DNA from: Candidatus Azophilus lithoversatilis
Lineage (GTDB): Bacteria; Pseudomonadota; Gammaproteobacteria; Pseudomonadales; Azotimanducaceae
Direction of reading: 5' to 3'
Length of the DNA stretch: 43,093 nt
NCBI GenBank assembly: GCA_028278675.1
Contig: JAQAJJ010000037.1
Span: 1 to 43,093, forward strand
A program made the position numbers and the translations under genes. The notes under the pieces were generated by a model that was not told where the DNA came from, did no database searches, and saw only the letters and a program-made list of their open reading frames with translations. How positions within the stretch are numbered: the first letter of the stretch is position 1; every line of letters begins with the position of its first letter. Of the stretch, positions 23,307 through 39,480 are shown one piece after another.

Positions 23307-23323
23307 GGAGTCCGCCAATCCCG

Positions 23324-24445
23324 CTATGCCGATGCGCGAAGCAGCGGCCCTTCGCGCCGTGCGAGGGTGGCGGAAGGCTGTTCCAAGCTTGGCAGCATCG
23401 TCACGGCGGCGCCCGGGCATTCGTCGAAATAGGCTGCGTTGAACAGGGTTTTGAAGTCAAGGCGATCCTGGTCCGGGCGGAAGCCGTGCCCGGTTGGCGG
23501 CGCCAGCAGGCGCCAAGCCGAATCGAAGCGGGCGCCAATGGAGAAGAAGCTCTCTTTAGGGTCCAGGGTTGCGCCGTAGCGGAGATCGCTCAAGGTGACC
23601 TCGAAGCCATTGGCCGCTTGCTGCACCACGGGAAAGCTCCAGCCCATGGTGAACCAATCAAAGGTGCGGCCTTCCTCCGTGGCCGCCAACAGCGAGGCAG
23701 CCACCCGGCCGTTCCTGGGCGCCCGCCCCCATTGGATGGCGCACGGCGACCAAGTGGAGAAGTAGCCGACCCGCACCTCTTGCGGGGTGCGCACGACGAC
23801 GCGCCGGTAGTGCACCTGCAGAATCGTGGGGAAGGCGCTCAACTCATAGTCCGCCAAACCCTCGGCCGCCAGTTGCGCGGTGGCGAATTGCGCCGTTTCA
23901 CGGTTTTGCGCCCATCCGTATGCGAGGTAGGCGCAGCTCAAAGCCAACGCGGCCAGGGCGGAAGCCTTGCGGCGGCGCGGCGATTTGAGCCAAGCCCCGG
24001 CCCCCAGCCCACCGAGCAGGATCAAGGTGTACACCGGGTCGATGATGGGCATCGCATTGACCGCAAACCGCCGTTCGGAAAACGGCGCGAACAACTGCGT
24101 GCCGTAGGGCGTCAACCAATCCAGCACTGGGTGGGACAGCAGCGCCAAGGTGGCCACGGCCAGCCACCAAAGGTGTTGACGGCGCCAATGCAGGCCATCG
24201 CCGAATCGCCGCCACAGCCAGTGGCCAGCCAGCGGGCCCACCGCCAGCAGCACGATGAGTGAGTGGGTGATGCCCCGGTGGTGCTTTAGGGTGTCAAAGA
24301 AGTCGCCGCCAATCGAGAAGACCACGTCGATGTCCGGAGCGGCCCCCAGGGCGGCGCCGGCAACAAGAACCCCCTTGGCCATGTCGGCGGGCGCTGCGCT
24401 GCGGGCGGCAATCGCGCCAAGCGCCGCTTGGGAGAACGGATCCAA
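23324..24445 (-). CDS. Membrane metal-dependent hydrolase, YdjM/DUF457 type
   Basis: A 373-residue inner-membrane protein. The N-terminal part carries the family pattern: MDPFSQAALGA, AAPDIDVVFS, then HHRGITHSLIVLLAV and LLSHPVLDWLTPYGTQLF, where the conserved histidines and aspartates are candidate metal ligands. Several hydrophobic helices surround them. The C-terminal third is a soluble domain of unclear kind (TILQVHYRRVVV onward). The start codon is TTG at 24445, directly after the stop of the CoA transferase gene, and the next gene starts 17 bases further on, so it sits mid-operon. Relatives of this family respond to DNA damage in E. coli, but the catalytic activity is unproven. Confidence 0.75.
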   Translation of the reverse strand: MDPFSQAALGAIAARSAAPADMAKGVLVAGAALGAAPDIDVVFSIGGDFFDTLKHHRGITHSLIVLLAVGPLAGHWLWRRFGDGLHWRRQHLWWLAVATLALLSHPVLDWLTPYGTQLFAPFSERRFAVNAMPIIDPVYTLILLGGLGAGAWLKSPRRRKASALAALALSCAYLAYGWAQNRETAQFATAQLAAEGLADYELSAFPTILQVHYRRVVVRTPQEVRVGYFSTWSPCAIQWGRAPRNGRVAASLLAATEEGRTFDWFTMGWSFPVVQQAANGFEVTLSDLRYGATLDPKESFFSIGARFDSAWRLLAPPTGHGFRPDQDRLDFKTLFNAAYFDECPGAAVTMLPSLEQPSATLARREGPLLRASA

Positions 24446-27364: not shown

Positions 27365-28582
27365 GTGAAATCGCGTAGGCAATTCCTGAAGGCGGGCGCT
27401 CTTGGCACCGGCGCTGCGGCCATGACGCCGGTGCTGCCGCAGGCGGCGGTGCGGGAGGCGGATGGCGCCAACCGGGTGCGCCGCTACGTGAAGCTGGGCC
27501 GCACCGGGCTGGAGATGTCCGACATCTCGTTTGGATCAAGCCGGTTGCGCGAGGGCGAGGAAGGCCTGGTTCGCCACGCCCTGGACAAAGGCGTCAACTA
27601 CTTCGACACCGCCGAAGGCTACACCGGCGGCCAATCGGAGCGGGTGCTGGGCAATGCGCTCAAGGGCGAGCGGGAGCGCGTCATCATCGCCTCCAAGACC
27701 GCCGCCCCAGCCACCGCGTCCAAGGAGCGGATCATGGGCGAGTTGGAGGGGAGCCTTAAGCGCCTGCAAAGCGATCATGTGGACATCTACTTCAACCACG
27801 CCGTCAACGACCCCGCCCGGCTCGACAACCCGGAATGGTTTGAATTCTGCGAGCGTGCCCGGCAGCAGGGCAAGATCCGCTTCACGGGAATGTCCGGCCA
27901 TGCGGGGCGCTTGGTGGAATGCCTCGACCACGCCTTCGACAAGGACATGGTGGACGTGGTCCTGGTGTCGCTCAACTTCGGCCAGGATCCCGAGTTCCAC
28001 GAACGCTTCACCCGGGGCTTCGATCTCGTCGCCCGCCATCCGCAACTGCCGCGGGCCTTGCGCCGCGCCAAGGAACAGGGCGTCGGCGTCATCGCCATGA
28101 AGTGCCTGATGGGTGCCCGCCTCAACGACATGCGCCCCTACGAGCGGGACGGCGCCTCATTCGCCCAGGCGGCCTTCCGTTGGACCCTCTCCCAGCCCGA
28201 CGTTGACGCACTAGTCATCTCCATGACCTCAACGGCCAAAATCGACGAATTCCTGGGCGCATCGGCCTGGCAATCGCTGGCGGCGGGCGATCGGGCGCTG
28301 CTCGGCCGCTACGCCGCCTTGAACGGCGCAAGCTACTGCCAGCAAGGCTGCAATGACTGTGCTGGGTCCTGCCCCTTCGGGGTTCCGATTGCCGACGTGC
28401 TGCGCACCCGCATGTACGCCACGGACTATCAGGACCTGGACTTCGCCCGCCGGGAGTACGCCCAACTCGAAGTCAACGCCAGCCCCTGCCTCGGCTGCGA
28501 TGGCGCACCCTGCCTGGACGCCTGCAGCCACGGGCTGCCCATTGCCGAACTCTGCGCGCCCACCCATCGGATGCTGGCCTAG
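27365..28582 (+). CDS. Tat-exported aldo/keto reductase with two ferredoxin-like clusters
   Basis: A 405-residue protein. A twin-arginine signal (MKSRRQFLKAGALGTGAAAM) predicts export. The aldo/keto reductase barrel follows, with YVKLGRTGLEMSDISFG, the catalytic aspartate and tyrosine in YFDTAEGYTGGQSERVLG, the lysine in ASKTAAP and the histidine in FNHAVND. The C-terminal 80 residues add two cysteine groups, CQQGCNDCAGSCP and CLGCDGAPCLDAC, consistent with two 4Fe-4S clusters. It would therefore be an electron-linked aldo/keto reductase rather than a plain NADPH enzyme. GTG at 27365 has GGAGG 7 bases upstream. Its TAG stop coincides with the first base of the inverted-repeat element before larB. 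Confidence 0.85.
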   Translation: MKSRRQFLKAGALGTGAAAMTPVLPQAAVREADGANRVRRYVKLGRTGLEMSDISFGSSRLREGEEGLVRHALDKGVNYFDTAEGYTGGQSERVLGNALKGERERVIIASKTAAPATASKERIMGELEGSLKRLQSDHVDIYFNHAVNDPARLDNPEWFEFCERARQQGKIRFTGMSGHAGRLVECLDHAFDKDMVDVVLVSLNFGQDPEFHERFTRGFDLVARHPQLPRALRRAKEQGVGVIAMKCLMGARLNDMRPYERDGASFAQAAFRWTLSQPDVDALVISMTSTAKIDEFLGASAWQSLAAGDRALLGRYAALNGASYCQQGCNDCAGSCPFGVPIADVLRTRMYATDYQDLDFARREYAQLEVNASPCLGCDGAPCLDACSHGLPIAELCAPTHRMLA

Positions 28583-28612
28583 TGTCTCGTCAAGCGTCAT
28601 ATGTCGCATCAG
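28582..28612 (+). repeat. Left 31-bp terminal inverted repeat
   Basis: This is the left arm of the element, and it matches the reverse complement of 28724-28754 at all 31 positions. The preceding base differs from its counterpart at the right end, which fixes the outer boundary. Its first base is the last base of the upstream TAG stop codon. Confidence 0.9.
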
Positions 28613-28723
28613 CGTTCGCCCTTCGGGAGCGCCAGCGGCGCGCCATCGCTTTGTTGCAGCCCTTGGCAATGCGGCCAGGCATTCCCTGCGGACTGCGCCT
28701 CGCGCTGAGGCGCCGCTGACGCT

Positions 28724-28754
28724 CTGATGCGACATATGACGCTTGACGAGACAC
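28724..28754 (-). repeat. Right 31-bp terminal inverted repeat
   Basis: This is the right arm of the element, ending 2 bases before the ATG of larB. It therefore occupies the place where the larB ribosome binding site should be; only GACGAGAC is left there. It also contains ATG triplets in frame with larB (for example at 28736), but these would add residues not normal for LarB. Confidence 0.9.
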
Positions 28755-28756
28755 CA

Positions 28757-29506
28757 ATGCTCGACGACATTCTGGCCGCATTCAAGGACGGCGCGATCGA
28801 GGCCGATGAGGCGAGCCGCCGCATTCGCGCAACCTTCTACCAAAGCGTTGGCCAACCGAGCGCCGCCCATTCGACCCTCGACAGCGACCGCCTGGCGCGC
28901 ACTGGCGCTTCGGAAGTGATCTACGGAGCGGGCAAGAGCGCGGTGGAGATCGCTGATCTGGTCGAGGCCCTGGTCGGGGCGGGACAAAACGCCCTGGTCA
29001 CCCGAACCGGTCCGGAGGCCTACGATCAAGTGCTTGAACGCACCCCCGCCGCCCGCTACCACGAAGCGGCATCGGCCATCACCGCCACCGTTCAGGAGCC
29101 GCCCAAGGCCGACACCCTGATCGCGGTCATCACAGCCGGCACATCGGATGCGCCGGTGGCCGAGGAAGCCGCGGTCACGGCGGCCTTTTACGGCAATCCG
29201 GTATTGCGCGTTCGCGATGTGGGGGTGTCGGGCCTGCACCGGTTGCTGGCCCGGCTCGAGGAGATTCGCCAAGCGCGGGTGGTGATCGTCGTGGCCGGCA
29301 TGGAGGGCGCCCTGCCCAGCGTGGTTGGCGGTTTGGTGGAGGCACCGGTCATCAGCGTACCCACCAGCGTCGGCTATGGCGCCGCCTTCGGCGGCGTCGC
29401 CGCGCTGCTGGGCATGCTGTCGAGTTGCGCCGCGGGCCTCGCCGTGGTCAACATCGACAACGGCTTCGGCGCCGGATACCTCGCCCACAAGATCAACAGG
29501 CTTTGA
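28757..29506 (+). CDS. larB: LarB, pyridinium-3,5-biscarboxylic acid mononucleotide synthase
   Basis: A 249-residue protein of the LarB family, with the C-terminal half homologous to PurE/AIR carboxylase. Landmarks are MLDDILAAFKDGAIEADEAS at the N-terminus, SEVIYGAGKSAVEIADLVEA, VITAGTSDAPVAEEAAVTA, VIVVAGMEGALPSVVGGLV and VGYGAAFGGVAALLGML. LarB carboxylates and hydrolyses nicotinate adenine dinucleotide in the first step of nickel-pincer nucleotide cofactor synthesis. ATG at 28757 gives the normal N-terminus. larE follows after 2 bases. No larC, the nickel insertase, is in the window. Translation must cope with a structured upstream repeat and a weak ribosome site. Confidence 0.9.
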   Translation: MLDDILAAFKDGAIEADEASRRIRATFYQSVGQPSAAHSTLDSDRLARTGASEVIYGAGKSAVEIADLVEALVGAGQNALVTRTGPEAYDQVLERTPAARYHEAASAITATVQEPPKADTLIAVITAGTSDAPVAEEAAVTAAFYGNPVLRVRDVGVSGLHRLLARLEEIRQARVVIVVAGMEGALPSVVGGLVEAPVISVPTSVGYGAAFGGVAALLGMLSSCAAGLAVVNIDNGFGAGYLAHKINRL

Positions 29507-29508
29507 GC

Positions 29509-30348
29509 ATGGCACCGCAACTGCTGTCCATCGAACTCACCGCCAAGCTGGACGCCCTCAAGGCCAGCCTGAGTGCCATGGAAGGCGCCTTAGTCGCCTA
29601 TTCCGGTGGTGTGGACAGCTCCTTGGTCGCCTATCTGGCCGCCGAGGTGCTTGGCGCCAAGGCCTTGGCGGTCACTTCCGGCAGCGCCAGCCTCAAGCGC
29701 TCCGACCTGCGTCTAGCGGAGCGCTTGGCCGATGAGTGGGGCATGCGCCATCGGGTGATCGTCACCGACGAACTCAGCAAGCCCGACTACCGCGCCAACC
29801 CGGTCAACCGCTGTTTCCATTGCAAGACCTCCCTGTACACGGCGCTGGCGGACATCGCCCGGCAGGAGGGATTCACCGAAATTCTCAATGGCACCAACAC
29901 CGACGATCTCGGCGACCATCGGCCCGGCCTCATCGCCGCCCAGGACTTCGCCGTCCGCTCGCCCCTGGTGGAGGCCAGCGTGAACAAGGCGGGGGTTCGC
30001 GCTCTCGCGGCTCATCTCGGCCTCGACAATGCCGAGAAGCCGCAGTCCGCCTGCCTGTCGAGCCGCTTTCCCTACGGCGCGTCGATCAACGCCGAACGGC
30101 TTGCCCAAGTGGAGCAGGCCGAGGAACGCCTGGCGGCGCTCGGCTTCGTTGAGTTTCGTGTCCGCCACCATGAGGACGTGGCCCGCCTAGAGATCGGTGC
30201 CGGCGAACTCCAACGAGCGCTGGCGCTGCGCGAAGCGCTGGAAGCCGAAATTCAAGCCTGCGGCTACCGCTTCGTGGCCCTCGATTTAGGCGCCTTCCGT
30301 TCCGGATCGTTGAATGAAGGCATCATCGAAGCGACCAACATCGAATAG
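29509..30348 (+). CDS. larE: LarE, ATP-dependent sulfur-insertion enzyme
   Basis: A 279-residue PP-loop ATPase of the LarE family. The pyrophosphate loop is YSGGVDSSLVAYLA (residues 31-44), and NRCFHCKTSLY carries a CxxC pair (Cys102, Cys105). The block KPQSACLSSRFPYG holds Cys182, at about the position of the cysteine whose sulfur is sacrificed in the best-studied LarE. With three cysteines near the active site, a cluster-dependent sulfur transfer variant is also possible. LarE adenylates P2CMN and inserts sulfur to make the dithio pincer. It starts 2 bases after larB and is followed after 8 bases by the second aldo/keto reductase. Confidence 0.9.
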   Translation: MAPQLLSIELTAKLDALKASLSAMEGALVAYSGGVDSSLVAYLAAEVLGAKALAVTSGSASLKRSDLRLAERLADEWGMRHRVIVTDELSKPDYRANPVNRCFHCKTSLYTALADIARQEGFTEILNGTNTDDLGDHRPGLIAAQDFAVRSPLVEASVNKAGVRALAAHLGLDNAEKPQSACLSSRFPYGASINAERLAQVEQAEERLAALGFVEFRVRHHEDVARLEIGAGELQRALALREALEAEIQACGYRFVALDLGAFRSGSLNEGIIEATNIE

Positions 30349-30356
30349 GCAACCCC

Positions 30357-31256
30357 ATGATTGAACGCATCCCCTTCGGCGGCACCGGCCATGCCAGCAG
30401 CCGCATCCTCTTCGGCGCCGCGGCGCTCGGTGCGATGCGCCAAGACCGGGCGGACAAGACCCTGGACCTCCTGCTCGAATTCGGCGTCAACCACATCGAC
30501 ACCGCCGCCAGCTACGGCGACTCGGAACTGCGTCTCGCCCCCTTTCTGAGTCGGCATCGTTCCGACTTCTTTCTCGCCACCAAGACCCATGAACGCGGCG
30601 CCGCCGGTGCCCGGGCGCAACTGCACCAATCCTTGGAGCGTCTGGGCGTCACGCAAATTGACCTCGTGCAGATGCACAACTTGGTGGACAGGGACGAGTG
30701 GAAGACTGCCCTTGGCCCGGGCGGCGCCCTTGAAGCCTTGGTGCAGGCCAAGGCGGAAGGCTTGGTTCGCTTCATTGGCGTGACCGGCCACGGCACCTGG
30801 GTGGCGCAGCGGCATCTGCAGAGCCTTGAGCGCTTTGCCTTTGACTCGGTCCTGCTGCCCTACAACCACACCATGATGAGCCAGCCTGTTTACGCTCGGG
30901 ACTTCAGGCGCCTGCAGGCGCTTTGCGAAAAGCGCAACGTGGCCATGCAGACCATAAAATCGGTCGCACGGCGGCGTTGGCAGGACGCCGACCCGGACCC
31001 GCACTTTTCTTGGTACATGCCGATCAAGGAGCCTGCTGCCCTGCGCCGCGCGGTGCATTTCGTGCTCGCCGAGCCGGGACTGTTTCTCAACAGTTCCAGC
31101 GACGCCACCCTGTTGCGCCCGATTCTCGAAGCCGCCAGTGAACCGATCGAACCGCCAAGCACGCAGGCGATGGAACGGGACGTGGCCGAGCACGGCATGG
31201 CGCCCCTCTTTGTCCGTGGCGAATCCGACGAGGTTGTTCTGGCCCCTGCTGGATAA
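30357..31256 (+). CDS. Aldo/keto reductase family protein
   Basis: A 299-residue aldo/keto reductase without a signal peptide. The barrel landmarks are IPFGGTGHASSRILFGAAAL, the catalytic Asp/Tyr in HIDTAASYGDSELRLAPFL, the lysine in LATKTHERG and the histidine in QMHNLVDRDEW, with SLERLGVTQIDLVQ between. The usual C-terminal NADPH-phosphate binding loop is weak, and an insertion (RRRWQDADPDPHFSWYMP) occurs late in the barrel, as in a subgroup of uncharacterised reductases. It is probably cytoplasmic. It sits 8 bases after larE, so it may belong to the lar operon, but whether it uses or helps the nickel cofactor is unknown. Confidence 0.85.
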   Translation: MIERIPFGGTGHASSRILFGAAALGAMRQDRADKTLDLLLEFGVNHIDTAASYGDSELRLAPFLSRHRSDFFLATKTHERGAAGARAQLHQSLERLGVTQIDLVQMHNLVDRDEWKTALGPGGALEALVQAKAEGLVRFIGVTGHGTWVAQRHLQSLERFAFDSVLLPYNHTMMSQPVYARDFRRLQALCEKRNVAMQTIKSVARRRWQDADPDPHFSWYMPIKEPAALRRAVHFVLAEPGLFLNSSSDATLLRPILEAASEPIEPPSTQAMERDVAEHGMAPLFVRGESDEVVLAPAG

Positions 31257-31265
31257 ATCTCCTCG

Positions 31266-32402
31266 ATGGAGCCTTCCCACTCGCAGCCTTCCCACTCGCA
31301 GCCTTCCCACTCGCAGCCTTCCCTGTCCGTGGTGGTGCCAACCTTCCACGAGGCTGCAAACATTCCGGTCCTCGCTGAACGCCTAAGCGCGGCGCTCGAC
31401 GAGCGCGGCATCGAATGGGAGTTGCTGCTGGTCGATGACGACTCCAACGACGGCAGCGAAGCCATCGCCAGGGAGTTGGCGAAGCGGCTGCCGGTGCGCA
31501 TGACCGTGCGCCGTGCGGCCCGCCGTGACCTCTCCCTGTCGGTGCTTGAAGGCGTGCGGCTGGCTCGATTCGACCGGCTGGTGGTGATGGACGCTGACCT
31601 CTCCCACCCTCCGGAACGCATCACCGACCTGCTCCGAACATTGGATGACGGCTGCGATCTGGCGCTTGGCAGCCGCTACGCCACCGGCGGCACCGTGGAC
31701 CGCGATTGGAGCCCCTGGCGCTTTCTGACCTCCCGCTTGGCGACCGCGCTGGCCCAGCCCCTCACCCGCTGTTCCGACCCCATGAGCGGCTTCTTCGCCA
31801 TCGATCGCCGGCGGCTGCCGGACCTGCGACAGTTGCGCCCCATCGGCTACAAGATTGCCCTGGAGCTCATGGTGCGCGGGCGCCTGCGCGTCAAGGAAGT
31901 GCCGATCGGCTTCTCGGATCGCGCCGCTGGCACCAGCAAGATGAACGGCCGGCAGTGGATCAACACCGCTCGACACCTGCACCGCCTGTATCGGCACCGA
32001 TTCGGCGGCTGGGCGCGGGCGATCTGGTTCGCGGCCGTCGGCGCCAGCGGCTTCTTGGTTGATGTGGTTTTCTACCTAGGTCTGCAGTGGGCTGGCGTCA
32101 ACCACCAACTGGCGCGGGCGCTTTCCTTCTGGCCAGCGGCGAGCTGGAATTGGGCACTGCACCGCCGCATCACCTTTAGGGAACGCCCGCGCCGTCCCCG
32201 TACCCGGCAGTGGGCAGAATTTCTCGCCGCCAGCTTGGTCGGCCTTGGCGTGAACCTAGGCACCTACCTCGCCCTGACCGGTTGGATCGACTTCTTCGAC
32301 CGCCATCGATTGTTGGCGCTGATCTGCGGCGTGGCCCTCAGCGGCGGGGTCAATTTCCTGAACTCAGCCCGGGTCGTCTATCGCCAGCAGGCCGCACCTT
32401 GA
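31266..32402 (+). CDS. GT2 glycosyltransferase with GtrA membrane domain
   Basis: A 378-residue protein. After a peculiar repeated N-terminus, a dolichol-phosphate-mannose-synthase-like GT2 domain spans about residues 18 to 240 (LSVVVPTFHEAANIPVLAER, LLVDDDSNDGSEAIA, the DXD-type DADLSHPPERI, GSRYATGGTVDRDWSPWR). A GtrA-like domain with four predicted helices completes it (AVGASGFLVDVVFYLGL to GVALSGGVNFL). Such fusions transfer a sugar from a nucleotide sugar to polyprenyl phosphate and flip or present it across the inner membrane. It starts 9 bases after the aldo/keto reductase and may be co-transcribed. The acceptor and sugar are unknown. Confidence 0.85.
   Translation: MEPSHSQPSHSQPSHSQPSLSVVVPTFHEAANIPVLAERLSAALDERGIEWELLLVDDDSNDGSEAIARELAKRLPVRMTVRRAARRDLSLSVLEGVRLARFDRLVVMDADLSHPPERITDLLRTLDDGCDLALGSRYATGGTVDRDWSPWRFLTSRLATALAQPLTRCSDPMSGFFAIDRRRLPDLRQLRPIGYKIALELMVRGRLRVKEVPIGFSDRAAGTSKMNGRQWINTARHLHRLYRHRFGGWARAIWFAAVGASGFLVDVVFYLGLQWAGVNHQLARALSFWPAASWNWALHRRITFRERPRRPRTRQWAEFLAASLVGLGVNLGTYLALTGWIDFFDRHRLLALICGVALSGGVNFLNSARVVYRQQAAP
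31271..31323 (+). repeat. 15-bp in-frame coding tandem repeat
   Basis: The unit GCCTTCCCACTCGCA occurs three times in perfect tandem (31271-31315), and the first 8 bases of a fourth copy follow. It encodes PSHSQ repeats just after the start codon of the GT2-GtrA gene. Because the unit is five codons, gain or loss of copies would change only the length of the N-terminal tail. Confidence 0.95.
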
Positions 32403-32565: not shown

Positions 32566-33468
32566 TTATGCCGACCGCGAAGCGGACCCTCTCCGGCCCA
32601 AGTAGCTGAACAACTGCCGGTCGTGGCGGCTGGCTGCGGAAAACCGCTCGGGACGCGGCCAGGGTGGCCAGCGCGGCGGTTCGCCCCGCGGCTGGTCGCC
32701 AATCACCGTGACCCGCTGGATGATGCGCTCGCTGGCGAAGTCGTTGAGCACAAAATGCTGGGTGCAACGGTTGTCCCAGATCGCCACCGTGCCCTCTGAC
32801 CAGCGATAGCGCACGGTAAAGCGCGGGTTTTTCACCCAATTGGTGAGATAGCGCAGCAGCGCATCGCTTTCGCCGGCGCTCATTTCGACAATGCGCCGGG
32901 TGAAGTGCTCGTTGACATAGAGCGCCTTGCGCCCGGTTTCAGGGTGTTCCCGCACCACCGGATGCACCATCATGCTGTCGGGCCGGTTGTGGGGTGCGGC
33001 GTCGTGCAGGGCAGTCAAGCCGAGACACAGATCCTGCATCGGCGGCGACAGCTCCTCAAAGGCTGCATAGAGGCTGGTCCAAAGGGTGTCGCCGCCGGTC
33101 TCCGGGCACTTCACCATGTGCAGAATCGACATCACCGCGGGCCTTTCCTGGAAGGTCAGGTCGGTATGCCACTCATCGGCAATGCCACCGTGGCTGGCGG
33201 CCAGCTCGAAGAGCTCATCTCGGTCGGTGAATGGATTCTTCAGGTTGGGGTGCGACTCCAAGGTGCCGAAGTGACGTCCAAACTCGATGTGCTCATCAAC
33301 GCTGATGCGCTGGCCAGGCAGGAAGAGCACGAGGTGCCGAAGCAGCAGGGAGCGGATCGCCTCAGCCTCCGCCGGGCCCGCCGCGGCGAGATCAAAACCA
33401 CGCACCTCGGCACCGAGGGCGCCCGCCAGCCGAGTGACCTCCACGTTCGAGTGCCCTGCCTGCGTCAT
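32566..33468 (-). CDS. TauD/TfdA family 2-oxoglutarate dioxygenase
   Basis: A 300-residue non-haem Fe(II)/2-oxoglutarate dioxygenase. The iron ligands are His101 and Asp103 in DEWHTDLTF and a later histidine in RCTQHFVLNDF. The 2-oxoglutarate-binding arginine is in RIIQRVTVIGD. The start at 33468 has GGGGAG 6 bases upstream. Relatives release sulfite from taurine or alkyl sulfates, or cleave aryloxyalkanoates by hydroxylation. The C-terminal tail after the arginine (PWPRPERFSAASRH) is a little longer than in TauD. It is transcribed divergently from the putative lipid operon across 94 bases containing an inverted repeat. Bases 32403-32565 downstream hold no gene. Confidence 0.9.
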   Translation of the reverse strand: MTQAGHSNVEVTRLAGALGAEVRGFDLAAAGPAEAEAIRSLLLRHLVLFLPGQRISVDEHIEFGRHFGTLESHPNLKNPFTDRDELFELAASHGGIADEWHTDLTFQERPAVMSILHMVKCPETGGDTLWTSLYAAFEELSPPMQDLCLGLTALHDAAPHNRPDSMMVHPVVREHPETGRKALYVNEHFTRRIVEMSAGESDALLRYLTNWVKNPRFTVRYRWSEGTVAIWDNRCTQHFVLNDFASERIIQRVTVIGDQPRGEPPRWPPWPRPERFSAASRHDRQLFSYLGRRGSASRSA

Positions 33469-33502
33469 CCGTCGCTCCCCTTGAACCACCTTGATGGGCT
33501 TG

Positions 33503-33532
33503 ATTCTACTTGCACGGGAAGGCGAGTAGAAT
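33503..33532. promoter_or_regulatory. Inverted repeat in the divergent promoter region
   Basis: ATTCTACT and AGTAGAAT form a perfect 8-base inverted repeat with a 14-base spacer, so the half-sites are centred 22 bases apart, about two helical turns. The right half includes TAGAAT, a reasonable -10 hexamer for the operon starting at 33563. The position between dioxygenase and lipid-operon starts suits an operator bound by a dimeric repressor. No regulator gene is adjacent. Confidence 0.45.
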
Positions 33533-33562
33533 GCCCCGCGCCCGTCGCGTTGCGGAATAGCC

Positions 33563-34696
33563 TTGACCGTCGAAATCATCCCAGTGACCAACAAGCGCCT
33601 GCTCAAGGCCTTCATTAAGGTGCCTTGGCCCATCTACCGCGACGATGGCGCTTGGCGGGCGCCCTTGGTGCAGGAGCGCCTGATGGCCTTCTCCCCGAAG
33701 TCGCCGGTGTTCGACCACTTGGAATGGCAAGCTTGGATCGCGCTGCGAAACGGTCGGCCCGCCGGCCGGATCACCGCCCAGATCGACGCCTTGCATCAGG
33801 CGCAACACGGCGAGGGGACAGGCTTTTTCGGGCTGATTGAGTGCGAGGACGATCAGGACCTCTTTGGCGCCCTGCTCAATATCGCGGAGGATTGGCTGCG
33901 CCATCGGAAAATGCACCGCATCATTGGCCCGATCAATCTGAACATCAACCAGGAAATCGGGTTGCTCACCGAAGGCTACGACACCCCACCCTACTTCATG
34001 ATGGGCCACGCCCGCCCCTACTACCCCCAGCGCATCGAGGATCTCGGCTATCAGCCCTGCCAGCACATGCTCGCCTACGAAGCGGCAATGACCTACGAAG
34101 AACCCCGGGCCGTGGCCGTGCAGCGCAAACGGCTGGCGCGGCGCATCGCCTTACGCCCATTCGATCGGTCGCAAAAGCGCGCGGACCTGGAACGGCTGCG
34201 CAACATCTTCAACGACGCCTGGTCCGGCAACTGGGGCTTTGTCCCCTTCACCGAGCGGGAGTTTCAAGCCCTGGGCCGAATGCTGCTGCTGATCGTGCCC
34301 AATGACCTGATCTGGCTCGCCGAAATCGACGGCGAAGCAGTCGGCTTCATCGTCTTGCTGCCCAACATCAACGAGGCGATTGCGGACTTGAACGGCCGCT
34401 TGCTGCCATGGGGATGGGCGAAGCTGCTTTGGCGATTGAAGGTCCGGCTGCCCGCCAGCGGCCGAGTTCCGCTGATGGGGGTACGCCGCCATCTGCACGA
34501 CGGCCCGCTCGGCGGCGGCGTCGCCATGAGCCTGATCCAGCGCGCCCGGGAAACCGGCCTCGGGCATGGCATCTTAACCTGTGAGACCTCGTGGATACTG
34601 GAGGACAACAAGGGCATGCGGGCCATCATGGAGCGCATCGGCGGCGTGGTCAGCAAGCGCTACACCGTTTACGAAAAGCGGTTGGTGCCGCCGTGA
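33563..34696 (+). CDS. GNAT/YghO-like acyltransferase, possible ceramide synthase
   Basis: A 377-residue protein with a tandem GNAT-like layout. The N-terminal half contains FIKVPWPIYRDDGAWRAPL, GRITAQIDALHQ and RIIGPINLNINQEIGLLTEG. The C-terminal half contains WSGNWGFVPFTEREF, LIWLAEIDGEAVGFIVLLPN and LTCETSWILEDNKGMRAIME. This is the YghO-like N-acyltransferase family, which as I recall includes the bacterial ceramide synthase of Caulobacter. It would acylate a sphingoid base or another long-chain amine, but this is inferred from family and neighbours. The start is TTG with GGAA 5 bases upstream. Its stop overlaps the next start (GTGA). It is the first gene of a six-gene operon. Confidence 0.75.
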   Translation: MTVEIIPVTNKRLLKAFIKVPWPIYRDDGAWRAPLVQERLMAFSPKSPVFDHLEWQAWIALRNGRPAGRITAQIDALHQAQHGEGTGFFGLIECEDDQDLFGALLNIAEDWLRHRKMHRIIGPINLNINQEIGLLTEGYDTPPYFMMGHARPYYPQRIEDLGYQPCQHMLAYEAAMTYEEPRAVAVQRKRLARRIALRPFDRSQKRADLERLRNIFNDAWSGNWGFVPFTEREFQALGRMLLLIVPNDLIWLAEIDGEAVGFIVLLPNINEAIADLNGRLLPWGWAKLLWRLKVRLPASGRVPLMGVRRHLHDGPLGGGVAMSLIQRARETGLGHGILTCETSWILEDNKGMRAIMERIGGVVSKRYTVYEKRLVPP

Positions 34697-35478
34697 AGGC
34701 GATCGTGCTGGCGGGAGCCCGCGCCGACGAGCCGTCCGGTGGACGCCACGGCGACCGGATGCCCACGCCCCTGACCCCGGTGGCGGGCGTCCCCTCCCTA
34801 GTCAGGGCATTGGACGCCCTGCGTTGCTCCGAGACGGTGGACGGCGGCCTGCTGGCCGGCCCGGAAATGCGGCATGGCCGCCATGGCGGCACTGTCGCCG
34901 AACTGCTCGCCGCCGGGGACTTTGCGTGGTCCGCGCCAGCGACCGGCCCAGCCGAGAGCGCACTAAAGGCCATTGAGCGCCTCGACTCCTGGCCGATTCT
35001 CTTGACCACGGGCGACCACGCCCTGCTGAGTGCACAAACCGTTGATGGCTTCTGCGCCGCGGCGAGCGCTCAAGACGCCGATTTGACGGTGGGCCTGGCA
35101 CCCCATCGCTTGGTCGCCGAGCGATTTCCGGCCCTCAAGCGCACCCGGCTGCGCTTTGCCGACGCGGCCTACTGCGGCACCAACCTCTTCTACCTCCGCA
35201 GCCCCAAGGCGGCACGGGCCATCGCCTTTTGGGTCAACGTGCAGGCCAATCGCAAACGGCCTTGGCGGATCCTGGGGCGCTTGGGGTGGCGCACCCTGGC
35301 CGCTTATGCCTGCGGCCGCCTGAGCGTCGATGGCGCCTTGGCGGCGCTGTCCCGGCTGACGGACTGCGCTTTGGGCTGGGTGGCCGTTGAAGATCCCCTG
35401 GCAGCCATTGACGTGGACTCCGCCGCCGATCTTGCCGTTGCGGAAGGGATACTGGAATGCCGGTCCCGCTCCTGTTAA
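34693..35478 (+). CDS. MobA-like nucleotidyltransferase
   Basis: A 261-residue protein of the MobA-like NTP-transferase fold. It begins VKAIVLAGARADEP, the usual nucleotide-binding first strand and loop, though the loop is less glycine-rich than the consensus LAGGxGxR. The segments WPILLTTGDHALLSAQTVDG and TNLFYLRSPKAARAIAFWV match the metal-binding acidic turn and the later beta strands, and a C-terminal D-V-D occurs in AAIDVDSAADLAVAEG. It should form a nucleotide-activated small alcohol or sugar. GTG at 34693 overlaps the previous stop, and the 3' end overlaps the lipid kinase gene by 22 bases. A head-group-activating role for the same lipid is inferred. Confidence 0.7.
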   Translation: MKAIVLAGARADEPSGGRHGDRMPTPLTPVAGVPSLVRALDALRCSETVDGGLLAGPEMRHGRHGGTVAELLAAGDFAWSAPATGPAESALKAIERLDSWPILLTTGDHALLSAQTVDGFCAAASAQDADLTVGLAPHRLVAERFPALKRTRLRFADAAYCGTNLFYLRSPKAARAIAFWVNVQANRKRPWRILGRLGWRTLAAYACGRLSVDGALAALSRLTDCALGWVAVEDPLAAIDVDSAADLAVAEGILECRSRSC

Positions 35479-36302
35479 CCAACCCGAGGGCGGGGGTGGA
35501 CAAACACCAACTCGCCTTTCGCGGAGAGCGGTTCGTGCTGGGCACCGGGCCGCTTCCGGATCTGTCCGCCTTCAGCCTGCTGGTCCTCGCCGGCGGCGAC
35601 GGCACCCTGCAACGCACCCTGACCGAGGCGCTTGCGCAAAAGCCGGCCAGCGCCCTGCCGCCCATTGCCGTGCTTCCGGCTGGGCGCACCAACATGTCGG
35701 CCGCGGACCTCAATGACCACCGACGATTCGCCCAATGCGCCAAGGCGCTTGAACCGATGCTGGACGGCCCCCTGCCCCCCGCCACCGTTCGACCGCTGGT
35801 TCGAGTGGATCAGGCGGACGACCACCAATATGGCTGGTTCTTCGGGCTCGGCGTGGTGGCCTCCGGGATCGCCCACTGGAGCGGACGCCGCTCCGATAGC
35901 CAGTTGGCCACCACCCTGCGCACGGTTTGGTCTTCGGCAAGGGGATATCTGGCCCCCATCGAGCACCAGGCGATCCGCTGGAACGGCGAAACGCGGCAGG
36001 TGTTCGCGATGATCGCCACCACCCTCAACCGGCTGCTCTTCGGCAGCCGTCCCTATTGGGGGGACGGCGAGGGGATGCACAACACTTGGGTGTTCAGCGA
36101 GGCCCGTGGCAGGGTGCGCCGCAGCTTGCGGCTGCTCAGTGGCGATGCCTCCTTGGGCCGGCTGCCCGGCTACGCCAGCAGCAATCAAACTGGGCTCGAA
36201 CTCGAACTCGACGGTCCTTACACCATCGACGGCGAGCTGTTCCACAACCAGGGCCCGCTGCGGCTTTCCCTGAGCGAACCCCTGCGATGGCTGTCGTTGT
36301 GA
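35457..36302 (+). CDS. DAGK-family lipid kinase
   Basis: A 281-residue protein of the diacylglycerol/sphingosine/ceramide kinase fold. The substrate/ATP segment LLLTNPRAGVDKHQLAF opens it, and the nucleotide motif VLAGGDGTLQRTL (GGDGT at residues 46-50) follows. LPAGRTNMSAADL corresponds to the usual GTxNDFA loop in a variant form. The C-terminal beta-sandwich ends with YTIDGELFHNQGPLRLSL, where DGE is the typical late motif. The enzyme would phosphorylate a lipid hydroxyl. Bacterial ceramide kinase belongs to this family, so a ceramide substrate is plausible beside a ceramide-synthase-like gene. It overlaps both neighbours, by 22 and 16 bases. Confidence 0.8.
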   Translation: MPVPLLLTNPRAGVDKHQLAFRGERFVLGTGPLPDLSAFSLLVLAGGDGTLQRTLTEALAQKPASALPPIAVLPAGRTNMSAADLNDHRRFAQCAKALEPMLDGPLPPATVRPLVRVDQADDHQYGWFFGLGVVASGIAHWSGRRSDSQLATTLRTVWSSARGYLAPIEHQAIRWNGETRQVFAMIATTLNRLLFGSRPYWGDGEGMHNTWVFSEARGRVRRSLRLLSGDASLGRLPGYASSNQTGLELELDGPYTIDGELFHNQGPLRLSLSEPLRWLSL

Positions 36303-37057
36303 AAGGCCAAGGTGAGGTCGCGGAACGGGATGCGCCCAAGCCGCGCGTCGCCATTCGCTTGGGCAAAGTGGTCATGCGCACGTTCGACGCCTTTCTCGCC
36401 CGCCATTCGCGAGTCGCCACCACGCCCTTCATTGATCGCAGCGCCTTTTCCTGGGTGCCCGCGCTGGAAGCCGAAGCCGCGGCCATCCGCACCGAACTCA
36501 ACGGCATCATGCGCCATCCCCAAAACATACCCGCCTTTCATGAAATGTCACCCGACCAGGTGCGCATCTCCAAGGGTGACAATTGGAAAACGTTCGTGAT
36601 GCGCGTATTCGGCCACCGGATCGACGACAACTGCGCCGCCTGCCCGAACACCGCAGCGCTCATCGAAGCCCTGCCGGGCGTGCAGAACGCCTGGTTCTCG
36701 ATCCTGGCACCCGGCTACCACATTCCCCCCCACCGGGGACCGACCAAGGCCCTGGTGCGCTGCCACCTCGGCCTGCGGATTCCCGCCAACGCGGCGGACT
36801 GCTGGATTCGGGTGGGCGATCAAGTGCGCCACTGGGAGGACGGCCGCTGCCTGCTGTTCGACGACACCTATGAGCACGAAGTGCGCAACGACACCCCGGA
36901 ATCCCGAGTGGTGCTGTTCCTGGACGTGGAGCGCCCCTTGGACCGCGCCGGAGAGACCTGCCGGCGGCTGGTGCTGGCCCTGTTTCGAGCAACGGCCTAC
37001 GTCAAGCGCCCGATGGCGAACATCAAGCGCTGGAACCAAGGGCTGCAACGGCCGTAG
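36287..37057 (+). CDS. Aspartyl/asparaginyl beta-hydroxylase-like, LpxO-type
   Basis: A 256-residue member of the Asp/Asn beta-hydroxylase fold, which includes LpxO, the lipid A 2-hydroxylase. The iron ligands are expected in YHIPPHRGPTKALVRCHLGL (His149) and in YEHEVRND (His197), with the 2-oxoglutarate-binding arginine shortly after (SRVVLFLDVERPL). SILAPGYHIPPHRG is a strong family signature. LpxO hydroxylates the 2-position of an acyl chain using Fe(II) and 2-oxoglutarate. In this operon the enzyme could 2-hydroxylate the N-acyl chain of a ceramide-like lipid. No N-terminal membrane helix as in LpxO is clear. ATG at 36287 overlaps the kinase gene by 16 bases. Confidence 0.8.
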   Translation: MAVVVKGQGEVAERDAPKPRVAIRLGKVVMRTFDAFLARHSRVATTPFIDRSAFSWVPALEAEAAAIRTELNGIMRHPQNIPAFHEMSPDQVRISKGDNWKTFVMRVFGHRIDDNCAACPNTAALIEALPGVQNAWFSILAPGYHIPPHRGPTKALVRCHLGLRIPANAADCWIRVGDQVRHWEDGRCLLFDDTYEHEVRNDTPESRVVLFLDVERPLDRAGETCRRLVLALFRATAYVKRPMANIKRWNQGLQRP

Positions 37058-37062
37058 ACCCC

Positions 37063-38700
37063 ATGCTGACCGACTTCACCCATGCGAAGTCGCCGCGCAC
37101 GGCACAAGCCGACGTCTGCATCATCGGCGCCGGCGCCGCCGGCATCACGCTCGCCCGGGGCCTGACCGGCCAGGGTCTGCGCATCCTGCTGCTGGAGAGC
37201 GGCGGCCTGGACTACAGCCCGGAAACCGCCGCCCTCGGCGTCGGCGACAACATCGGCTCCGCCTACTACCCGCTCGAGGACAGCCGCCTGCGGTTTTTCG
37301 GCGGCACCACCAACATCTGGGGCGGACGCTGCGTCCCCTTGGACGACATCGACTTTCAAGCGCGGGATTGGGTCGCGCACAGCGGCTGGCCCATCAAGGC
37401 GTCTGAACTGGCCGATGGCTACCGCGCAGCCCATGAGGACTTGGAGGTCGCCATGCCAACGGGTTCGCGGGATAGCGACGCCGAAAGTGAGCAGCCCTGG
37501 GGCGCCGCGGCGCTGTCCATGGATGCCAATCGCTTCATGAGCCGTTGTTGGCGCTTCGACCGCCAGCGGGAGCGCTTCCATGCCAAGCATACCCAGGATG
37601 TGCTCAAGGCATCGGACATCGAAACGCTCATCAACGCCACGGCGGTGCGCATCCAAGCCAATCCGCAGCGATCAGGCATTGAGCACGTGCTGGTGCGCAA
37701 CGCCGGCGGACGCATCGCGAAGATTACGGCCAACGCCTATGTGCTGGCCTGCGGCGGCATCGAAAACGCCCGCCTGCTGCTGGCGTCGAACGATGTCGAA
37801 CCGCACGGCATTGGCAACCGCCACGACCAGGTGGGGCGCTTCTTCATGGAGCACCCACACGGTCGCCTAGGCCGCATCCAAACCCGCGAGCCCTATCGCC
37901 TCTGGGACGCATTTCGCATGCGCTTCCCAACCGGCGGCGTGCCCGTGGCGCCGGTCCTCCTGCCGACGCCCGGCCTGCAGCGGGAACGGGGCATCCTGAA
38001 CACCGCTTTGACCTTCAAATGGCAACGCAATCCCGCAGCGGGCGTGCCCCGCGCTCGACGAATCTATCAGGAGTTGAAGACCGAGCTAGCGCCCGGACGG
38101 GGCAACCGGCGGCTCTGGCACGCCTACCGGGGATTGCGGTTCGCCTACGCCCGTTCCCTGCGCCCCCTAGTGACCCGCGGCCTGATGCGCCTGCAGGAGT
38201 TCCAACTCAGCGTCATGATCCGCGCTGAACAAGCGCCCAATCCGGCAAGCCGCGTCGTGCTGTCTAGCACCAGGGATGAGTTTGGGTGCCCCAGGGCGAA
38301 CTTGGACTGGCGGCTTGGCGAACAGGATAAGCACACTCTGCGCGAGTTGGCGCGGGCCCTGAACGACGAATTGGTGCGCCTCGATCTGGGCGTTGTCGAA
38401 CCATCCCCTTGGCTGGAGGAAACCGGCCTCGATTGGCCCGTGGACGGCACGGTGGGCAACCACCCCATCGGCGGCTATCACCATGCCGGCACCACCCGCA
38501 TGAGCGCCGACCCTGCCGATGGGGTGGTGGACCGCAACTGCGCGGTCCACGGCTACCCCAACCTCCAAGTCCTCGGCAGTTCCGTGTTTCCCACAGCGGG
38601 CTGGGCCAACCCGACCCTGACGATCCTCGCCTTGGCGCATCGATTGAAGGTGCACTTGCTATCGAGGCGCACTGACTTGCCAAGGCACAAAATCGAGTAA
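37063..38700 (+). CDS. GMC-family FAD oxidoreductase
   Basis: A 545-residue glucose-methanol-choline oxidoreductase. The FAD-binding start is ADVCIIGAGAAGITLARGL (GxGxxG at residues 22-27), followed by ILLLESGG, the segment FFGGTTNIWGGRCVPLDDID and the second FAD contact VLACGGIENARLLLAS. The C-terminal active-site region reads GGYHHAGTTRMSADP, LQVLGSSVFPTAGWANPTLT, giving the His/Asn pair of the family. These enzymes oxidise an alcohol to an aldehyde or ketone. No signal peptide is seen. It starts 5 bases after the hydroxylase gene, so oxidation of a hydroxyl on the same lipid or its head group is likely, but the substrate is not known. Confidence 0.85.
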   Translation: MLTDFTHAKSPRTAQADVCIIGAGAAGITLARGLTGQGLRILLLESGGLDYSPETAALGVGDNIGSAYYPLEDSRLRFFGGTTNIWGGRCVPLDDIDFQARDWVAHSGWPIKASELADGYRAAHEDLEVAMPTGSRDSDAESEQPWGAAALSMDANRFMSRCWRFDRQRERFHAKHTQDVLKASDIETLINATAVRIQANPQRSGIEHVLVRNAGGRIAKITANAYVLACGGIENARLLLASNDVEPHGIGNRHDQVGRFFMEHPHGRLGRIQTREPYRLWDAFRMRFPTGGVPVAPVLLPTPGLQRERGILNTALTFKWQRNPAAGVPRARRIYQELKTELAPGRGNRRLWHAYRGLRFAYARSLRPLVTRGLMRLQEFQLSVMIRAEQAPNPASRVVLSSTRDEFGCPRANLDWRLGEQDKHTLRELARALNDELVRLDLGVVEPSPWLEETGLDWPVDGTVGNHPIGGYHHAGTTRMSADPADGVVDRNCAVHGYPNLQVLGSSVFPTAGWANPTLTILALAHRLKVHLLSRRTDLPRHKIE

Positions 38701-38709
38701 ACTGTTCCA

Positions 38710-39480
38710 ATGAAGGTAATTGTTCTATCCGCTGGCCAAGGCAAGCGGCTGCTGCCGTTGACCGAGGATCAACCCAAGTGCGCCCTGATGCTCGGCGAAC
38801 GGACGGTGCTCGGTTGGCAATTGGAGGCGTTTGCGGCCGCCGGGGCCACCGAAGTGGTGGTGGCCACGGGCTTTCGCGCTGGGCTCATCGGCCGGCTCGT
38901 CGAGGACTACGCCAAGCTTGAAGTGCGCACGGCGCACAATCCCTTTTTCGCTCATTGCGACAATCTTGGCACTTGCTGGGTGGTGCGCCATGAAATGACC
39001 GATCCGTTCATCATCGTCAACGGCGACACCTTGTTCGAGCCGGAGGTCTTCGCCCGGCTCATCAACAGCCCCGACGAGCACCCCATCACCTTGGTCACCA
39101 ACGTTAAGGACAGCTACGACGATGACGACATGAAAGTGATCGTCTCCGGCAATGAACTCAAGCAGGTGGACAAGAAGCTGCCGACGGGCGAGGTTCACGG
39201 CGAGTCCATCGGCATGATCCGCTTCCAAGGTGACGGGCCCCGACTTTTTCGGGAGTGTCTCGAATCCATGATGGCCGTCGAATCGACCTTGGGCCGTTGG
39301 TATCTGTCCGCTATTGATGCCCTCGCCGCGCAAGGCTACGTCGGCATCACCACCACCGGCAGGCACGATTGGTGCGAGATAGACGACCGCAAGGACCTGG
39401 AGCATGCGCGCACCACCGTGCCGCTCTGGTTTAAGGGCCGATTGTCGGCCACGGAGAAGCTGGCCGGCGCCATTCGCTGA
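38710..39480 (+). CDS. LicC-like nucleotidyltransferase
   Basis: A 256-residue sugar/phosphocholine nucleotidyltransferase. The signature is KVIVLSAGQGKRLLPLTEDQ followed by the invariant lysine, then FIIVNGDTLFEPEVF with the metal-binding aspartate, and HDWCEIDDRKDLEHA with the second metal aspartates near the end. HNPFFAHCDNLGTCWVV is typical of the phosphocholine cytidylyltransferase (LicC) branch. Such enzymes make CDP-choline, CDP-glycerol-like compounds or nucleotide sugars. It is the last gene of the six-gene operon, 9 bases after the GMC gene, and the second nucleotidyltransferase of it. The activated head group is not predictable from sequence alone. Confidence 0.8.
   Translation: MKVIVLSAGQGKRLLPLTEDQPKCALMLGERTVLGWQLEAFAAAGATEVVVATGFRAGLIGRLVEDYAKLEVRTAHNPFFAHCDNLGTCWVVRHEMTDPFIIVNGDTLFEPEVFARLINSPDEHPITLVTNVKDSYDDDDMKVIVSGNELKQVDKKLPTGEVHGESIGMIRFQGDGPRLFRECLESMMAVESTLGRWYLSAIDALAAQGYVGITTTGRHDWCEIDDRKDLEHARTTVPLWFKGRLSATEKLAGAIR

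Follow-up and report, generated by a model that had tools for sequence, protein, structure and literature searches.

The closest described counterpart to the six-gene operon analyzed here, from Candidatus Azophilus lithoversatilis, is the ceramide phosphoglycerate (CPG/CPG2) cluster of Caulobacter crescentus. In Caulobacter, CC_1160/CpgB is a ceramide kinase and CC_1152/CpgD makes CDP-glycerate (PMC11324152, PMC12275187); the CofC-like CC_1153 is required for CPG2, and CC_1159/CpgA, CC_1161/CpgC and CC_1158 act in the remaining steps (PMC11324152, PMC12275187, PMC10331486). The aca/cerS family of ceramide synthases takes in both yghO and CC_1154 (PMC9386255, PMC11324152). The Caulobacter cluster also encodes second versions of LptF and LptG, and the acyl hydroxylase of this organism is reported to be DesA-type, CC_0202 (PMC11324152). 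Its anionic sphingolipids support life without lipopolysaccharide, and a link with polymyxin sensitivity is also described (PMC12275187, PMC11324152). The steps that lead from ceramide to the head group in Caulobacter are still being established, one enzyme at a time. Our operon lies in a window (the whole stretch of DNA analyzed, 43,093 nucleotides) that is the entire 43-kb contig C36 of a draft genome of 3.77 Mb (104 contigs, 99.56% complete, 2.5% contamination). The operon almost certainly serves a sphingolipid pathway, and its sequence features make it very probably a phosphosphingolipid module of the Caulobacter CPG/CPG2 type. We propose that it would be one of three dispersed modules of such a pathway, the others lying on contigs C18 and C29.

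The operon comprises six open frames, all on the + strand (33563-39480), in the order that a preliminary description of this DNA had given:

33563-34696, + strand: gene A, YghO-type GNAT, predicted ceramide synthase (CerS; cf. CC_1154); TTG start
34693-35478, + strand: gene B, MobA-like nucleotidyltransferase (cf. CC_1153); GTG start, GTGA overlap with A
35457-36302, + strand: gene C, DAGK-family lipid kinase, predicted ceramide kinase (cf. CpgB/CC_1160)
36287-37057, + strand: gene D, Asp_Arg_Hydrox family Fe(II)/2-oxoglutarate enzyme, predicted acyl hydroxylase
37063-38700, + strand: gene E, GMC-family flavin adenine dinucleotide (FAD) oxidoreductase
38710-39480, + strand: gene F, cytidylyltransferase-like, predicted CDP-glycerate synthase (cf. 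CpgD/CC_1152)

Successive genes meet at junctions of -4, -22, -16, +5 and +9 bases (A/B, B/C, C/D, D/E and E/F). A Pfam scan assigns A to PF00583 (28.1 bits, cut-off 20.7), C to DAGK_cat (32.5 bits), D to Asp_Arg_Hydrox (173.7 bits), E to GMC_oxred_C (88.5 bits), and F to both NTP_transf_3 (46.7 bits) and NTP_transferase (36.0 bits). These families agree with the domain order of the preliminary description, B being assigned below its cut-off. In the domain scan, as in the equivalog scans and some of the comparisons with relatives below, 19 extra residues preceded the likely start of D in its query and 10 that of B. A consensus scan at the operon returned no promoter-like site on the + strand (two sites, both on the - strand, with 1.2 expected) and three terminator-like sites versus 7.8 expected. 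Because A, B, E and F stand together in one direction in seven of eight congeners (G001, G002 and G004-G008; G003 has no A match), the grouping is not a product of chance. Moreover, A is followed by B in the same orientation in 73 of 80 named loci, which are the best 80 of 577 relatives from a scan of named genomes; the nearest named relatives are metagenome-assembled genomes titled Pseudomonadales bacterium or Gammaproteobacteria bacterium.

The window lacks a serine palmitoyltransferase (SPT) and a 3-ketosphinganine reductase, which the preliminary description had named as its main gap; a genome search for spt and cerR homologues closes it. Among 16 aminotransferase-family matches in the genome, one on contig C18 is an SPT: its ten best solved relatives are all SPT entries (398-273 bits), and a 2-amino-3-ketobutyrate ligase follows at 231. 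The C18 gene run consists of an acyl ligase, a CerR-like reductase of the NAD-dependent epimerase/dehydratase type, an acyl carrier protein (ACP) and SPT, in the same order as beside yghO in E. coli BL21, with identities to the BL21 proteins of 43% (ligase), 42% (reductase), 52% (SPT) and 42% (ACP, over 48 residues only). Six congeners (G001, G002, G005, G006, G007 and G008) carry this SPT at 73-92% identity, and the C18 gene therefore belongs to the genus; G003 and G004 returned no SPT match. The gene after spt on C18 encodes a phosphoenolpyruvate-synthase-like protein (L077:12400-14924, approximate), named by eye from the sequence.

Contig C29 encodes a flippase-like protein, a CpgC-like protein, a CDP-alcohol phosphatidyltransferase, a metallophosphoesterase, an LptG/LptF pair and an LptA-like protein. 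Three of these resemble proteins of a Roseomonas sphingolipid cluster: the CpgA-like CDP-alcohol transferase at 42% (CDP-OH_P_transf, 44.4 bits), the CC_1158-type phosphoesterase at 37% (Metallophos, 61.2 bits), and the CpgC-like protein at 36%, its Roseomonas partner being itself equated with CC_1161 by position. The genome holds four LptF_LptG matches, two on contig C9 and two on C29, and so has a second LptF/LptG pair.

We consider that the three modules belong together, because relatives carry them as a single run. In G005, of the same genus, one run of ~15 kb reads A-B-D-E-F-lptF-lptG-phosphoesterase-cpgA-cpgC-spt-acpR-cerR-aasR, without C. G020 and G027, from other genera of the same family, have A-B-C-E-F with the same partners (in G027, aasR would fall past the end of the stretch), and the named gammaproteobacterial metagenome-assembled genome L139 has nearly the whole set, E being inserted between spt and acpR and a D-type gene lying at the far end. 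Across 97 relatives, a strong GNAT match occurs in 23 and an SPT-grade match in 23, both in 20. At least one of aasR, cerR, acpR and spt lies in 43 of the 80 named loci (in L150 only at 25% identity), and all four in 24. A core ceramide gene at >35% identity is present in 42, within 3 kb of A in 40 of them; among the 49 named-locus stretches of 15 kb or more, 24 have a core ceramide gene, counting the 25% case.

The gene A protein shares 47% identity with YghO of E. coli BL21, and the same figure with YghO of another E. coli record over 99% of the gene A length. By sequence, this GNAT belongs to the ceramide synthase family: given its identity to YghO and the core ceramide genes near its counterparts in many relatives, it does not cluster away from ceramide synthases, in keeping with its earlier assignment as ceramide-synthase-like. 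A profile of gene A against solved chains gave a single match, a GNAT (E 0.0026), and this comparison turned up no ceramide synthase. Relatives borne on plasmids are 47-50% identical to gene A. We also noted that 44 plasmid records match gene A, that L084-L087 are whole or partial sphingolipid clusters on plasmids, and that a conjugative Klebsiella michiganensis plasmid among these carries SPT, ACP, ligase and YghO. Separately, G005 has two more GNAT copies (loci L057 and L058; 57-58%) without operon partners, one of them ~6 kb from a D-like gene (41%).

Genes B, C and F bear on the head group. A model of B built from 29 sequences (predicted local distance difference test score, pLDDT, 90.2) has 2dpw as its best Foldseek match, with IspD and GlmU further down, and B is 34% identical to a nucleotidyltransferase beside cerS on a Roseomonas plasmid. 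C carries GGDGT at residues 46-50 and DGE at 258-260, and its GGDG motif marks it as a predicted DAGK-type ceramide kinase. In F, residues R13, K23, N85, N104, D106, S166 and W197 are invariant in 13 alignment rows. On motif and spacing only, the kept residues G9, R13, K23, N85, N104, G105, D106, S166 and W197 would correspond to Gly12, Arg16, Lys26, Asn90, Asn110, Gly111, Asp112, Ser170 and Trp201 of CpgD, and T88 (T or S in the 13 rows) by motif match to Thr93, which contacts cytosine in CpgD (PMC12275187). Thus F appears to keep the catalytic and glycerate-contacting residues of CpgD, as judged by motif and spacing. Against solved chains, the best match of F is LicC (1jyk), a CTP:phosphocholine cytidylyltransferase, at 43.5 bits over residues 2-110, and none named CpgD matched. 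Despite this top match, the CpgD-like residues lead us to prefer phosphoglycerate over phosphocholine, and a phosphoglycerate head group is the probable outcome.

These assignments suggest the following pathway. AasR would load AcpR, SPT would join the acyl chain to serine, and the CerR reductase would act on the product. Gene A would then N-acylate the long-chain base to give ceramide, which C would phosphorylate to ceramide 1-phosphate. F would convert CTP and phosphoglycerate to CDP-glycerate, and B, F, the CpgA-like and CpgC-like proteins and the phosphoesterase would attach a first and then a second phosphoglycerate. The flippase-like protein of C29, the second LptF/LptG pair and the LptA-like protein may move the lipid towards the outer membrane. 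D would 2-hydroxylate the amide-linked acyl chain, and E might, more tentatively, oxidize a secondary alcohol of the lipid (the C3-OH of the base or the 2-OH introduced by D); the resulting ketone would make the product an oxo-ceramide phosphoglycerate. The predicted core chain draws on family, residues, gene order and published Caulobacter work; the roles offered for D, and then for E, are of decreasing strength. The preliminary description had read the operon as N-acylation, phosphorylation, hydroxylation, alcohol oxidation and attachment of an activated head group to give a novel lipid. SPT, the identity to YghO and the one-run cluster of G005 support that reading; phosphocholine as the head group gives way to phosphoglycerate, which fits better by residues, and the pathway is not wholly novel, most of it being described in Caulobacter. 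The core pathway is already known, and the departure is the pair of hydroxylase and GMC enzyme, which we did not find described in the literature searched.

D scores 202 bits versus a cut-off of 450 for OlsC and 124 versus 500 for LpxO in the NCBI equivalog scan; both scores being below the cut-off, D is by this rule neither OlsC nor LpxO. Residues H149, H197 and R207 are invariant in 15 alignment rows, and the conserved histidines presumably bind iron. D-type genes occur in 18 of the 80 named loci, including Stutzerimonas, Pseudomonas and Azotobacter, and one sits in a plasmid cluster of P. veronii at 54% identity. On balance D is likely to be an acyl hydroxylase, its role being most naturally read as 2-hydroxylation of the amide-linked chain. 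Across the 80 named loci, the 18 D-type and nine sterol-desaturase-type genes share no stretch (chance 0.09), which gives a hint, no more, that the D-type enzyme replaces the sterol-desaturase-type one. We found no report of a D-type enzyme in bacterial sphingolipid synthesis among the titles and abstract openings searched in one open-access library.

E has the FAD-binding glycines, and H473, H474 and N516 are invariant in 13 alignment rows; we take these glycines and the His/Asn pair to have their usual roles. Its best equivalog match among those listed (25 of 26 families) is pyranose oxidase, at 60.8 bits versus a cut-off of 544.9. By sequence and by model, its nearest solved relatives are the large subunits of FAD glucose dehydrogenase and fructose dehydrogenase, which act on small sugars. 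The model is of medium quality (pLDDT 65.6), with a best TM-score of 0.56, a root-mean-square deviation of 9.4 and 18-20% identity in the structural alignments, and it indicates a GMC fold and nothing finer. E orthologs form one clade of 18 (support 100/100) apart from eight other GMC enzymes. At 49% identity or more they occur in 14 of the 97 relatives, and every one of these 14 belongs to the 23 that have a strong GNAT match. The hypergeometric values for this co-occurrence, 2.9e-11 by genome and 1.0e-5 by genus, are too small because related genomes were treated as independent. Across 274 genomes of the class, GNAT is found in 16, and a GMC match with an E-value of 1e-100 or better in the window genome and one other (41%); with at most 14 candidates scored per genome in the search of relatives and at most five class-wide, weaker or hidden E copies could escape. 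E is present in 12 of the 80 named loci and F in 40.

D orthologs (at least 51% identity) occur in the same 14 of 97 genomes as E, plus G042. Strict coupling, in which E would act only on the product of D, was rejected across 50 named genomes, a set that overlaps in part with the 97 relatives: eight of 13 E genomes have D at 43% or more, and nine of 17 such D genomes lack E. Strong D was not found in the other five of the 13 named E genomes. Since E occurs only in GNAT-positive genomes among the 97, yet some E genomes showed no strong D, we conclude that E goes with the pathway but is independent of D. That E acts on the ceramide part is a serious possibility, with slightly less than an even chance in our judgment. 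In one open-access library, the titles and abstract openings of part of the matching papers mentioned no GMC enzyme that takes part in sphingolipid synthesis in bacteria. We regard it as possible, though tentative, that this lineage makes an undescribed lipid, an acyl-hydroxylated, oxidized (keto) ceramide phosphoglycerate, in which case E would be the first known GMC enzyme in sphingolipid synthesis and D, as an Fe/2-oxoglutarate ceramide hydroxylase, would stand in place of the DesA-type enzyme of Caulobacter.

Several observations weigh against assigning the operon to a Caulobacter-type pathway of three modules. The modules lie on separate contigs of a draft genome with contamination at the level given above, and mis-binning is therefore possible for C29. 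On that contig, the CpgC-like protein has no Pfam family and the flippase-like protein falls below the Pfam cut-off. B reaches 24.7 bits against the MobA-like PF12804 (cut-off 27) and lacks a Lys that many relatives carry at that position; neither D nor E attains the cut-off of any curated equivalog. No core ceramide gene is present in 37 of the 80 named stretches, in part because 31 of the 80 are shorter than 15 kb. G004 has the operon without an SPT match, no SPT-grade match accompanies GNAT in G034 and G043, and conversely G018, G042 and G049 have an SPT-grade match without GNAT. E stands apart from sphingolipid genes in G019, G100, G101 and G113, save for weak flippase- or ligase-like matches in three of them. 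Finally, the likeness to Caulobacter proteins is one of motif, family and position.

The same ceramide module could carry another head group or give E another role: F might activate phosphocholine or another small phosphate, or E might oxidize an alcohol to make a head-group precursor, for example towards (phospho)glycerate. LicC as the best solved match of F and the small-sugar substrates of the nearest solved relatives of E would suit this, as would the suggestion in the CpgD paper that a dedicated enzyme still to be identified may supply phosphoglycerate (PMC12275187). We nevertheless think it unlikely, since F keeps the glycerate-contacting residues of CpgD by motif and many CPG-type clusters have F without E, as the counts in named loci illustrate. 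D and E could also be passengers in the operon that do not act on the sphingolipid. Their separability across the 50 named genomes and the four genomes in which E lies away from the cluster speak for this; the confinement of E orthologs to GNAT-positive genomes (14 of 14), the placing of E in L139, where spt and acpR flank it, and the recurrence of D-type genes in named loci speak against it, and we judge it somewhat less probable still.

More radically, the GNAT might acylate another amine, so that the operon would have no connection with the SPT cluster and would make a different N-acyl lipid, of the amino-acid lipid type. The location of the SPT genes on another contig fits such a scheme, as do the two partnerless GNAT copies of G005. 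But single-run clusters that include spt, found in one congener and in two further genera of the family, and the many named loci in which a core ceramide gene lies within 3 kb of GNAT, make it very improbable. Overall, a CPG-type module with a phosphoglycerate head group remains the reading we prefer.

Just upstream of the operon and on the same strand, 31266-32402 encodes a family 2 glycosyltransferase fused to a GtrA/DPMS membrane domain; the fusion is kept in G007 and G008 and absent at that place in G001, G004, G005 and G006. On the - strand, the longest frame of a TauD-family dioxygenase (32566-33633) shares 71 bases with the start of gene A; the true start of the dioxygenase probably lies further in. 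Further upstream (27365-31256), two aldo-keto reductases, one with a twin-arginine-translocation-like start and an iron-sulfur-like C-terminus, flank an AIRC-domain protein and another frame, which we take to be LarB and LarE. In six congeners (G001 and G004-G008), the LarE-like gene is likewise found upstream of gene A. At 21123-23420, a pyridine nucleotide-disulphide oxidoreductase domain and AIRS domains share a single frame, presumably a SelD-type fusion.

In this genus the gene set is nearly complete, and the additions to it are defined, one hydroxylase and one flavoenzyme, which makes both modifications assignable; the E clade would mark organisms expected to make the modified lipid. Of these two enzymes, D shares the family of OlsC and LpxO but differs from both in its far lower equivalog scores. 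E is nearest to the FAD glucose and fructose dehydrogenase large subunits among solved GMC proteins, but at low identity, and unlike in those enzymes no other operon gene encodes such a subunit, by Pfam.

Compared as a whole, the locus resembles the yghO-spt cluster of E. coli BL21 (L083) in YghO, ligase, reductase, SPT and part of ACP, at the identities given above, and differs from it in that the kinase- and nucleotidyltransferase-like neighbors there are annotated as other families (dTMP kinase, ATP-binding). Azotobacter beijerinckii, Stutzerimonas and Pseudomonas (L143, L127 and L138) share spt-acpR-cerR-aasR, cerS, B, F, lptF-lptG, cpgA, the kinase, cpgC and a D-type gene, there in a single stretch, but they lack E and their D is only 37-46% identical. 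With the Caulobacter CPG/CPG2 cluster (CC_1168-CC_1152), the set here has in common CerS, the CofC/MobA-like nucleotidyltransferase, ceramide kinase, CpgD, CpgA- and CC_1158-like proteins, a putative CpgC-like one, a second LptF/LptG pair, and SPT with ACP, ligase and reductase (PMC11324152, PMC12275187, PMC10331486, PMC13228409). Unlike in Caulobacter, these genes occupy three loci, and the operon itself includes an Asp/Asn-type hydroxylase and a GMC enzyme, where the Caulobacter hydroxylase is the DesA-type CC_0202.

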